Below, one piece after another: positions 2,955-7,998 of a DNA stretch of 8,260 nt. Position numbers and translations under genes: made by a program. The notes beneath the pieces were generated by a model. That model saw only the letters and a program-made list of their open reading frames with translations, did not search any database and was not told the origin of the DNA. Each line of letters begins with the position of its first letter. Position 1 is the stretch's first letter. Source of the stretch: Gemmatimonadota bacterium (GTDB lineage: Bacteria > 4572-55 > J002); the NCBI GenBank assembly GCA_003697105.1, contig RFFQ01000043.1, positions 1-8,260 of the forward strand, in the 5' to 3' direction.

Positions 2955-5900
2955 CTAAGATGGCGCCAAGCCGTACTTTTCAATCAATTTATATACCCGG
3001 TGACGGTACACTCCCAGTGCCGCTGCCGCTTGGGAGATATTCCAGCCAGATTGGTTTAATGCACGTTCCACCAGATACCGTTCCAGTGCATTTTTTTTAT
3101 CATCTAAGGTATCACCATCTAACAAATGAACCACCTGATCCAGCGTGGGAGTATCTGCAACCGGTCGCGTGGCAGGGAGATTTACCGGTTGGTCTGGAAA
3201 GAGGTCGCCCACGGTTAGCAACTGATCCGCTTTTTGCCGGAGGACAGCTTTGGCAATGGTATTTTGCAGTTCCCGTACATTGCCCGTCCATTTTTGACGT
3301 TTCAGCGCTTCCAGCGCCTCTTTGGTAAAGCCGGTGATAGGTTTGTGGCACTCTTGGGCATATTTTTCCAAAAAATGATACGCCAATAAGGGGATGTCCT
3401 CTGGGCGATCGGCCAACGGGGGTACATAGATGCGTAGCACGTTCAACCGGTAGTATAAATCCTGCCGGAACGTCCCTTGCGCAATCTCTTTTTCCAATTG
3501 CCGGTGGGATGCCGCCACGATCCGCACATCCACCGGTAATGGATGCTTCCCCCCAATCCGCCAGACCTGTTTTTCTTCCAAAGCGCGGAGTAACTTCGCC
3601 TGAATTTCTACAGAAAGTTCCGCGATTTCATCTAAAAAGAGCGTACCGCCTTGCGCGAGTTCAAACTTGCCCGGTTTGGCAACGGCACCGGTAAAAGCGC
3701 CCCGTTCCTGCCCGAACAGTTCGCTTTCTGCCAATTCCCGGGGGATCGCCGCACAATTCACCGCAATAAACGGAGCTTGCCGTCGAGAGCTTAACCGGTG
3801 AAGTGCCCGTGCCACCAGTTCTTTACCGGTACCGGTTTCCCCCTGAATCAATACGGTCAGATTCACTTTTGCCGCTTCCTCAATCGCCTGATAAACGGCT
3901 TGCATTCGCTTGCTGTTGCCCACAAAAAATCCCAGGTGTTGGATTTCGGATTGCACCCGTAGGTGTTCTGCTTCTTCCTGTTGCACCAGTACGGGTGTGA
4001 GAATATCCGCTACCTGTTGCACCTGTTGCAATATCGCCGGATCGAATGCCCCCCGCTTCACCTGCCGTCGATCCAGATAAACCGCACCGATCCCATTACC
4101 TTGTATCCGCATTGGCACGGTTAATACGGAGAGAAACGGTTTGCTGATGACACTAGGATTTTCCCGAAATTCGGCCTCATCGGCTGCGTTTGCCACGCAT
4201 AACGGTTGGTTCTGATTGAACGTTTTGAGCAAGATCGACCGGCTAAAATCCACATCGTCGGTATCCATTCCCGAGGAGACGGCGCGGACTTCCAATCGAT
4301 CCGTTTTGGAGTTATGGACAATCACCTGCCCGCAATCCGCTTGACAAAAATCGACCAAAAAGCGCAGCAACTCTGTAAATGCCACTTCTGGATTCATCAA
4401 TTTGACCAACGCCTGAATGAGTGACAGCGTCGATGTTTCGGATGCCATTGTCTGTGAACCCTCCTTAAGAGTTTTTACCCGTTTTTGATAGCTCAACGTA
4501 GGTGTTTGCCGGTAAAGCTGTTCGTATCGCTCAAGTGCTTGTTGCTGGTAGTCCGCTGCCCGTGGATCACCCATTTGGCAACAGACCCACCACTGGGCAT
4601 AGGCTATTTGTGCCTGCTGGTGTAAAGAGTCCGCTATCACGGCTAAATCCTGTAATTGGGTTCGTGCTTCTTCCGGTTTTCCCTGTTTGGCGTCAAGTTC
4701 TGCCCGCAACAACCGGCAACGAAAGTCCGTATCTACTTTTTTGGTCTGCTCTGCCAGATATTGGGCTTCGGTGAGTAACGGTGCTACCGAATCGTATTTC
4801 TGCTGGGCAAACGCCAATCGTGCCGTATCCACCAACACATCCGCTAATTTGTGTTGGATACCCATCTGCCGTGCTAAGGTCAAGGCATGTCGGTAGGCTT
4901 CGTCCGCTTCATGAAAGCGGTTGAGCTCAAAAAAAAGACGTCCCCGGGCATGGTAGGCATTGAGTTGGGCGGATTTATCCCCGATATCGGTTGCCAATCC
5001 TAGTTGTTGATCGAACCAATTAAGCGCCTCTTCAAAATCGCCTTGGGTTTGCAACAGGGTACCGATATTCTCCATGACAACTAGCAGCGCAACTTTATCA
5101 TCCAACTGTTGGCAAAGCGCCAACTGTTTGCGGTAGCATCGCATCGCTCCGGCAAAATCTCCTTGATCATCGTAAACGGTGCCCATATTGCCCCAGGCCC
5201 AAGCAACTTCCCGCTGATTTCCCATCTCTTCTGCGAGCGCCAAATGCTGGAGATAATAGTCCATTGCGGTATCATAATGGTGTTTGTCCGCGTGGATGTT
5301 CCCCAGATTGCAGAGTGCCACCATCATTTTTGTTTTGTCATTTATCCGGCGGGACATCTCTAGCACGGTTTCCAATCTTTGTTGTGCCTTGTCTAATTGT
5401 CCCTGTCGGTAATAAATCAACCCGATGCTACCGAGCGCCGTGGTCACCTGATTTTCATTATTGAGAGACCGCCCAATGCTTAATTCTTGCTCAAAGTAAT
5501 CTAAGGCATCCTCGTAGCGTCCGGTTAAATCTGCTACGCGCCCTAAATGCCCTAACGCTTTACCGATTCGGAAGGTATCATTCATCGTTTGTGCCCGTTG
5601 TAATGCTTTGTGATAAACGGCCTCTGCTTGTTCCCAAGCACCGGTGAGCATCAGAATTTCACCCTTTTTAAATTGATAATCCCAGTAGGTGATCGGGTCT
5701 TCCAGAGTTTTTGCCAGTTCCATCACCCGTTGGTACCACTGCAACGCTTGATCATTTGCATAGCACCGGCGGGCAATATCTACCGCTTGTTTGTAGTAAT
5801 GCAGGGCTTTTTCCGGCAAATTGGCGGCATAAAAATGATGAGCGAGTGCCTCAACCCTCTGCTCCACCGGATCGGCGAGATACTGCTCTTCCAGCATTTC

Positions 5901-7940
5901 TGCCATCTTCCGGTGCCAAGCGGTGGCATGATCCGAGTCAATTTCCGCCAGCAAGATTTCTCGCACCGCATCATGTACAAACTGATAATTTCCTCGTTCA
6001 TCATCGATTAAGCGCATTTGACGGGCTTCATTTAAGGCGGTCATTACCGCATCTTCGCTTTGATCGAGCAACATTAGCAAGGAGTCGATCTCAAACACGT
6101 TTCCGATCAGCGCGGCAACTTGCAACACATTTTGCACCGTGGCATTTAGGCGGTCTAACCGTTCCCGGATGACGGTCTGCAAATTATCCGGTAACTCCTG
6201 CCGCTCCAGTGCCTCCACATCCAAAAACCAACCCTGAATGTGGCGGGTTAGGATTCCTTCATCCAGCAAATGTTCCAAAACTTCTCGCACAAAAAAGGGA
6301 TTGCCCCCGGTTTGCTGTGCCAGTGTTTTGATCAAGCGCTGAAAAGCGAAACTGGTAGGATGCAATCTACCGGGTGTAAATGGGGTCTCCGGTTCCGGCG
6401 TATCCCGCGGCAGACCAAGCATAGATACCACCATGTCATGAATGCCAGCGGTATCCAGCGGTGGTAATGGGAGAATTTTAACATCCGGATTCGATTCAAG
6501 CAACGGCAATATGGGCTGCAAGGATGAATCTGGCACCGCATCCGGGCGGTATGAGCCGATCAACAGAACCCCACTACCTGCCAGTTGGTCGACAGCATGG
6601 TAGATAAATTTTGCTACATGCGTATCTGCCCAGTGTAGGTCATCCATATAGATTACTAGCGGGATTGATTCATCTGCCGCCACCTGTTTGAGTAGATTAC
6701 AGAAGGTCGTCAGCCGCTCTTTTTCCGCTTTTTGTGGTGATGAGGGCGGGTGGGCTTCAATCTGGCTCATAAAGGAGTGGGACGCCAACTCCGGCATGAT
6801 AGTTGTCAATTCCCATGCTTGTTCACCAAACCAGCGGGCTTTTTCCGCATCGGAGCGATCCGCGAAGCGCGCCAAGAGTTGGGTCAACAGGTCGCGAAGG
6901 GGTTCGTAAAGGCGTTGCTCTGGGGTACACTTTGTCTGAAACACGATGGCATTCTGGAGGTAAATCGATTGAAACGTTTCCCACAGCCGTGTTTTACCAA
7001 TGCCGGCTTCTCCAGCTAGAAATAGCGTGTAACTGGTGCCTGCCTGTGCCGCGGTGAGCGCATTTTGTAACGCGGTAATTTGTACCGTTCGCCCCATTAG
7101 CTGAGGGGGTAGAAGATACATTCCAGCGGGTTGTTGGGGAATAGACAGCTCACACGGGATGAGCTGGCGGACTCGCGCGATCACATCCAAAGCACTGGGA
7201 GGACGGTCTGCCGGGTCTTTTGCCAATAACTGGCAAATGAGATCATTCACAATAGAAGGTAGCTCCGGGCGATACCGGATCGGAGGCGTTACTGCCGTAT
7301 TGAGATGCTGAAACGCAATTTCAGTCCATGTTTTACCATGGAAGGGCAAACGACCGGTAACCAGCTCGTATAACACTACCCCCATTGCATACAAATCACT
7401 GCGGGGATCAACCTGACTAGCATTGTTGCACTGTTCCGGGGCGGCATAATGCACCGTGCCCAAAAACGTGCCCGGACTTACTTCTGGCATCGAACCCTGC
7501 CACCGGATCAAATCAAAATCCGTAATTTTGAGGCAGTCTTCCTCCGTGACGAGAATATTTGCCGGTTTTAGGTCTCGATGAACAATTTGGCAGCTGTGAA
7601 GTGCATCCAAACCTTGACACAATTGGATCAACAGGGGTATCACCGCCGAAATATCAGAAGGGAAACCTGCCGGAAATCGCTCTGAAATCGGCTTCCCCTG
7701 GATCAACTCCATCACAAAACCGAACATTTCACCCGTCTCGACCCACTCGATCATGCGTACACAATGCGGGTGCTGCACCTGCTTCGCGGTAATAAAACCG
7801 GCTTTAATACGCTGTCGTTCTGCCTGATAAGCGGGGTGAATCTGTTTGAAAGCGGCAACCTCACCTGTAAGGCGGTGCCGTACTTGTGAGACCGTTCCGA
7901 ATGTTCCGGCGGCAATGTCCGTTTCGATGACCCAATCCAT
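2955..7940 (-). CDS. Fused Ser/Thr kinase - STAND ATPase - TPR - GAF - sigma-54 activator, 1661 aa
   Basis: One unbroken frame encodes, in order: a Ser/Thr kinase (about 1-262; Lys32, HRDLKPAN 121-128, DFD 141-143, APE 167-169); an AAA_16/STAND ATPase (about 281-700; Walker A GEAGIGKT 310-317, Walker B YMDDLHWAD 431-439, GGNPFF 545-550, FVHDAVR 654-660); TPRs (about 705-1140) with an exact 40-residue period (LG-type repeat ends at 800, 840, 880, 920, 960, 1000); a GAF domain (about 1172-1318); a sigma-54 AAA+ domain (about 1338-1565; Walker A GETGTGKE 1367-1374, GAFTGA 1414-1419, Walker B LFLDE 1434-1438, YYRLNVLR 1496-1503); and a Fis-type HTH (about 1620-1658). Intact GAFTGA and both Walker motifs predict a working sigma-54 activator acting on DNA in the cytoplasm. 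The N-terminal half resembles mycobacterial PknK (kinase plus STAND), the C-terminal half a free GAF/NtrC-type activator. The ATG at 7940 has an in-frame TAA two codons upstream and only a weak GGA ribosome site. The kinase has three altered conserved positions (Ala10, Gly48, Asp143). Ligand and phosphorylation target cannot be read from the sequence. Confidence 0.95.
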   Translation of the reverse strand: MDWVIETDIAAGTFGTVSQVRHRLTGEVAAFKQIHPAYQAERQRIKAGFITAKQVQHPHCVRMIEWVETGEMFGFVMELIQGKPISERFPAGFPSDISAVIPLLIQLCQGLDALHSCQIVHRDLKPANILVTEEDCLKITDFDLIRWQGSMPEVSPGTFLGTVHYAAPEQCNNASQVDPRSDLYAMGVVLYELVTGRLPFHGKTWTEIAFQHLNTAVTPPIRYRPELPSIVNDLICQLLAKDPADRPPSALDVIARVRQLIPCELSIPQQPAGMYLLPPQLMGRTVQITALQNALTAAQAGTSYTLFLAGEAGIGKTRLWETFQSIYLQNAIVFQTKCTPEQRLYEPLRDLLTQLLARFADRSDAEKARWFGEQAWELTTIMPELASHSFMSQIEAHPPSSPQKAEKERLTTFCNLLKQVAADESIPLVIYMDDLHWADTHVAKFIYHAVDQLAGSGVLLIGSYRPDAVPDSSLQPILPLLESNPDVKILPLPPLDTAGIHDMVVSMLGLPRDTPEPETPFTPGRLHPTSFAFQRLIKTLAQQTGGNPFFVREVLEHLLDEGILTRHIQGWFLDVEALERQELPDNLQTVIRERLDRLNATVQNVLQVAALIGNVFEIDSLLMLLDQSEDAVMTALNEARQMRLIDDERGNYQFVHDAVREILLAEIDSDHATAWHRKMAEMLEEQYLADPVEQRVEALAHHFYAANLPEKALHYYKQAVDIARRCYANDQALQWYQRVMELAKTLEDPITYWDYQFKKGEILMLTGAWEQAEAVYHKALQRAQTMNDTFRIGKALGHLGRVADLTGRYEDALDYFEQELSIGRSLNNENQVTTALGSIGLIYYRQGQLDKAQQRLETVLEMSRRINDKTKMMVALCNLGNIHADKHHYDTAMDYYLQHLALAEEMGNQREVAWAWGNMGTVYDDQGDFAGAMRCYRKQLALCQQLDDKVALLVVMENIGTLLQTQGDFEEALNWFDQQLGLATDIGDKSAQLNAYHARGRLFFELNRFHEADEAYRHALTLARQMGIQHKLADVLVDTARLAFAQQKYDSVAPLLTEAQYLAEQTKKVDTDFRCRLLRAELDAKQGKPEEARTQLQDLAVIADSLHQQAQIAYAQWWVCCQMGDPRAADYQQQALERYEQLYRQTPTLSYQKRVKTLKEGSQTMASETSTLSLIQALVKLMNPEVAFTELLRFLVDFCQADCGQVIVHNSKTDRLEVRAVSSGMDTDDVDFSRSILLKTFNQNQPLCVANAADEAEFRENPSVISKPFLSVLTVPMRIQGNGIGAVYLDRRQVKRGAFDPAILQQVQQVADILTPVLVQQEEAEHLRVQSEIQHLGFFVGNSKRMQAVYQAIEEAAKVNLTVLIQGETGTGKELVARALHRLSSRRQAPFIAVNCAAIPRELAESELFGQERGAFTGAVAKPGKFELAQGGTLFLDEIAELSVEIQAKLLRALEEKQVWRIGGKHPLPVDVRIVAASHRQLEKEIAQGTFRQDLYYRLNVLRIYVPPLADRPEDIPLLAYHFLEKYAQECHKPITGFTKEALEALKRQKWTGNVRELQNTIAKAVLRQKADQLLTVGDLFPDQPVNLPATRPVADTPTLDQVVHLLDGDTLDDKKNALERYLVERALNQSGWNISQAAAALGVYRHRVYKLIEKYGLAPS
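4446..4468 (-). promoter_or_regulatory. Internal Shine-Dalgarno and in-frame ATG at the TPR/GAF boundary
   Basis: On the minus strand TTAAGGAGGG (4468-4459) is followed after 10 nt by the in-frame ATG at 4448, codon 1165 of the regulator. Initiation there would give a 497-residue GAF, sigma-54 AAA+ and HTH protein, the size of a stand-alone activator. The match is much stronger than the gene's own start site. It could also be a chance effect of the Lys-Glu-Gly codons AAG GAG GGT. Confidence 0.5.
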
Positions 7941-7998
7941 TAGTTATCCATTTATTACATGCTATAAAAATCGTAGGTTTACACCATAAGACGCAACT

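Follow-up and report, generated by a model that had tools for sequence, protein, structure and literature searches.

A candidate internal translation start at the TPR-GAF hinge of a fused kinase-ATPase-TPR-sigma-54 activator gene

The regulator gene described here appears to encode one fused protein, in which a kinase, an ATPase, a TPR array, a GAF domain and a sigma-54 activator module follow each other in a single chain, a widespread architecture. At the hinge between its TPR and GAF parts it carries a strong Shine-Dalgarno (SD) sequence and an in-frame ATG. Judging from the sequence, we give about an even chance to the explanation that this is an ordinary fused activator with a lineage-specific usable internal start, from which some 497-aa NifA-like activator would be made. 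The window, meaning the whole stretch of DNA analysed, has 8260 bp and is identical with contig C109 in a draft genome that totals 4.18 Mb.

The gene (2955..7940, minus strand, as are its domains and the hinge features below) codes for 1661 amino acids; it was delimited by its open reading frame, by Pfam domains and by a start shared with a fused homologue in another genome (L039/L072). The N-terminal protein kinase domain (residues 6-247; 7200..7925; PF00069, E 1.6e-44) is followed by a STAND-like AAA_16 ATPase domain (residues 280-460; 6561..7103; PF13191, E 2.1e-24). The TPR array, with approximate edges at about residues 770-1120 (4581..5633), was recognised by the TPR_12/TPR_MalT families and by helical repeats in an AlphaFold model, and the GAF domain (residues 1184-1313; 4002..4391) by PF01590 and the same model. 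Next come the sigma-54 interaction AAA+ domain Sigma54_activat (residues 1340-1504; 3429..3923; PF00158, E 1.3e-70), which has its lid according to Pfam and a GAFTGA loop visible in the translation, and a Fis-type HTH, HTH_8 (residues 1619-1656; 2973..3086; PF02954, E 3.8e-6). With these components, and with rpoN present in the genome (RpoN DNA-binding domain, E 2.2e-63), the protein has the features of a sigma-54 activator. The full-length start (7941-7965; GTAATAAATGGATAACTAATG) has no SD. Many genes in this genome do carry AAGGAGG, unlike the start of this one. Further upstream, at the contig end (8122-8260), lies an array of 8-bp/32-bp tandem units (AACTCCCA).

On the minus strand the hinge reads AAA ACT CTT AAG GAG GGT TCA CAG ACA ATG GCA TCC. 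Here TTAAGGAGGG occupies 4468-4459; the internal SD, AAGGAGG, lies at 4460..4466 (duplex energy with ACCUCCUUA of -12.4 kcal/mol), and the candidate start ATG at 4446..4448 is codon 1165 of 1661. The spacer to this ATG is 11 nt counted from AAGGAGG and 10 nt counted from AAGGAGGG. Thus the longer reading frame contains both an SD and an in-frame start codon, and the initial annotation, which had reported a strong SD before an in-frame ATG at codon 1165, was right to the base. The internal start is conspicuous because the first start of the gene is weak. A weak 7-bp hairpin, AACUCUU-AAG-GAGGGUU (4457..4473, -4.4 kcal/mol), partly covers the SD, and its opening would cost about 3-4 kcal/mol. The region around the SD showed no excess structure relative to shuffled sequences (z 0.43), and a consensus scan of the minus strand revealed no internal promoter before the site.

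The strength of the site was estimated by a simplified and approximate RBS-like score, which combines the duplex with ACCUCCUUA, a spacing penalty, the start codon and local folding. Neither the 16S gene nor its 3' end was found in the assembly, and CCUCC was adopted as the presumed anti-SD; the enrichment of AAGGAGG before ATG in this genome (154 cases of AAGGAGG-N4-9-ATG vs 30 of a reversed control pattern) supports this assumption. The internal site scored -0.99 vs 2.2 for the gene's own start, so that the internal one is the stronger. It also outscored 86% of the starts in a set of 928 genes, each represented by its top-scoring start in a range of 30 codons.

If the site is so strong, then we can ask: How often would its equal arise inside genes? 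The scoring sample comprised 1.39 Mb, about a third of the genome, taken as stretches. In it, scores as good were reached by 5 of 5682 internal ATGs in frame (0.088%), which places our site in the top 0.1% of this class, and by 9 of the 11591 internal ATGs that are out of frame (0.078%). As the two rates are equal, about 15 such in-frame sites per genome are expected by chance, one of which might perhaps fall at a domain hinge. By synonymous shuffling of 254 kb of internal coding sequence, 0.38 in-frame occurrences of AAGGAGG-N5-12-ATG were expected, hence several per genome, and one was observed, the window site itself.

The 11-nt spacer stands at the long edge of the usual range. Spacers of 10-12 nt are weakly enriched (38 vs 18 in the control); about 16 of those 38 sites belong to a repeat or have a nearer ATG, and after clean-up about 12 of 22 resemble real starts. 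We had considered the 11-nt spacing as a disqualifying feature and dropped this objection, since several probable real starts in the genome have spacers of this length. SD-ATG counts are inflated by an array of AAGGAGGAAGGA-like repeats on contig C61 of G000 (20980-21224), which is rich in SD-like sequence. A leader similar to that of our site, AAGGAGGTTCACAGGTCAATG on contig C153 of G000, was tried as a shared ribosome-binding site and rejected as a chance likeness, because it lies out of frame within another gene; a direct search detected no shared leader.

The ATG was located on a confident AlphaFold model (mean pLDDT 85) that covers residues 1040-1340 and drew on eight homologues. The only segment with pLDDT below 50 comprises model residues 124-129, that is residues 1163-1168 of the protein; TPR helices precede it, and the helices and strands of the GAF domain come after it. 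Met1165 (model residue 126) is predicted to lie inside this sole disordered segment, so the initial claim of an exact TPR/GAF boundary agrees with the model. A product started at the hinge would therefore retain the whole GAF, AAA+ and HTH domains. This would-be protein of 497 amino acids (2955..4448), described beforehand as an activator of standard size, is indeed complete by Pfam: GAF, sigma-54 AAA+ with GAFTGA, and HTH_8, in a NifA-like layout. It matched positions 12-523 of the 534 in the NCBIfam nifA profile (TIGR01817), with 346-352 bits, below the cut-off of 528.85.

Among homologues the fused form is the rule, with ten cases in two related genomes and four in distant ones. In G001, a genome of the same phylum and class, one homologue is fused (1785 aa; L039, identical with L072), and another is split (L040, identical with L074). 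The latter consists of a 1191-aa kinase-AAA-TPR gene, a gap of 28 nt and a 525-aa GAF-sigma-54 gene with its own start and ribosome-binding site. Split homologues had been named as something to look for, and this pair is one, its cut falling no more than about ten residues away from the point that corresponds to Met1165. The two halves can therefore exist separately. The genome labelled Calditrichaeota bacterium CLD3 has about a dozen homologues, and all copies that extend beyond the hinge are fused. Its kinase-AAA-TPR-GAF-sigma-54 genes are clustered, three on L068 and two on L069, a large expansion of the family. The architecture recurs, also fused, in four distant genomes. In the other fused homologues, 30-40% identical, the hinge contains no SD and no in-frame start with a score close to that of the window site. 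Conservation of the AAGGAGG bases or of the Met had been suggested as a check, and neither is kept among these homologues, a result that speaks against an internal start but comes from sequences too distant, at this level of protein identity, to be decisive. Searches of the phylum, of plasmids and of viral contigs found no close relatives.

The output module also occurs in other settings, namely with a REC domain (L002) or almost alone (L041). The REC-GAF-sigma-54 paralogue L002, encoded in the window's own genome, shares 51-52% identity with the regulator's C-terminal half, which marks this module as mobile. On contig C88 of G000 we also observed a 2393-aa open frame (L043:3534-10712, minus strand), in which two complete kinase-AAA_16-TPR units stand in tandem in one chain. 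This duplicated PknK-like protein is unusual, and no sigma-54 or histidine-kinase output was present among the families listed for it.

The origin of the site may be explained in several ways. The initial annotation offered, as one of two options, that the gene arose by fusion and kept the old ribosome site. In this reading two genes of an operon would have fused in this lineage, and the ribosome site of the second one would have been left inside. The two-gene version cut at the hinge in the same class, and the GAF-sigma-54 module found in other company, speak for such a history. However, every other homologue examined is fused, those of distant genomes included, and the linker of our regulator has the same length as that of the fused L076, with no intergenic remnant. 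The branches of the tree are long (about 1.5 changes per site for the N half), and an SD without selection would have eroded at 30-40% identity. The split pair L074/L040 is most simply taken as a derived fission next to L072, although the trees of both halves are poorly resolved and neither demand nor exclude this. As fusion is common, the linker normal and the divergence sufficient to erase an unselected site, we consider a relic of fusion very improbable. Equally small is the probability we assign to a translational pause, in which elongating ribosomes would be slowed by the SD-like run between the two domains, giving the TPR half time to fold ahead of the GAF half. In favour of this, the run directly follows the last TPR helix in the model; against it, homologues do not keep the run at this boundary, and the in-frame ATG would be superfluous for a pause. 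Pausing at internal SDs is, moreover, disputed in the literature.

A more serious alternative is chance, which we hold to be quite possible at somewhat less than an even probability. Here AAG GAG GGT would simply code Lys-Glu-Gly in a variable linker with a Met 11 nt further on, and there would be little or no product, or one with no role. The equal frequency of equally strong sites in frame and out of frame, the several sites per genome expected from shuffling, the lack of conservation of SD and Met, the partial hairpin over the SD and the long-edge spacer all count against a used start. On the other side, it is very unlikely a priori that a top-0.1% site should meet a hinge of about six residues, though many genes were open to inspection, and the gene's own start is predicted to be the weaker of the two. 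From the strength of the internal start we think that ribosomes probably use it to some degree, a statement to which we give about even odds.

We thus return to the fused activator with a usable internal start. In this lineage the K-E-G codons of the hinge (AAG GAG GGT) together with the Met may have produced a strong internal initiation region. On a fraction of messages ribosomes would start at codon 1165 and make the 497-aa GAF-AAA+-HTH activator beside the 1661-aa sensor-activator. Sigma-54 activators act as hexameric rings; short subunits could therefore enter the ring, altering the dose of sensor domains and so diluting or bypassing control by the kinase, STAND and TPR parts. It is a rather unlikely, though conceivable, further step that the start has been selected, so that free activator subunits from the same gene set the ratio of sensor-bound to sensor-free forms, as the relative in the same class would do by splitting the gene. 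If the start is used, one sigma-54 regulator gene would yield dual products, and translation could separate signal control from output. A fused regulator could in this way also become two genes, first gaining the internal start and later losing the join. If the site is due to chance, it serves as a useful warning: internal ribosome sites of the top 0.1% can be expected to coincide with a domain boundary about once in every genome.

Comparable arrangements are known. In the SctQ/HrcQ/SpaO family one gene gives a full-length protein and also, through an internal ATG, a separate C-terminal one, and some relatives are split (PMC8553256, PMC12132427). The functional internal start of HrcQ, whose C-terminal product is required, has GAGG 11 nt upstream, and relatives carry separate HrcQa and HrcQb genes (PMC8553256). 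Initiation at the window site would follow this mechanism. In proteoform pairs of Salmonella the SDs of alternative starts are stronger than the annotated ones (PMC11005335). In contrast to the window site, which is not conserved in the homologues compared, the sites of the SctQ/HrcQ/SpaO family are genus-conserved and proven by mutation and blotting, and the family itself is unrelated. The would-be short product resembles NifA-type activators (GAF-AAA+-HTH) in domain order and size, and nifA is its best NCBIfam profile; it differs in its score, 352 bits against the higher cut-off, and in the fusion of the module to a kinase-ATPase-TPR half. With the HstK dual kinases of cyanobacteria the regulator shares an N-terminal Ser/Thr kinase and a GAF domain ahead of the output module. 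The output of HstK is a histidine kinase, whereas here HisKA is absent among the 25 families listed and the C-terminus consists of Sigma54_activat and HTH_8. The N-terminal half, by its domain content, is of the type of PknK, a soluble kinase in which the kinase domain is followed by AAA_16 and MalT-like TPRs. PknK, however, targets a distinct regulator protein, VirS (PMC4601284), while the activator of the window lies in the same chain and that of the split pair L040 in the next gene.
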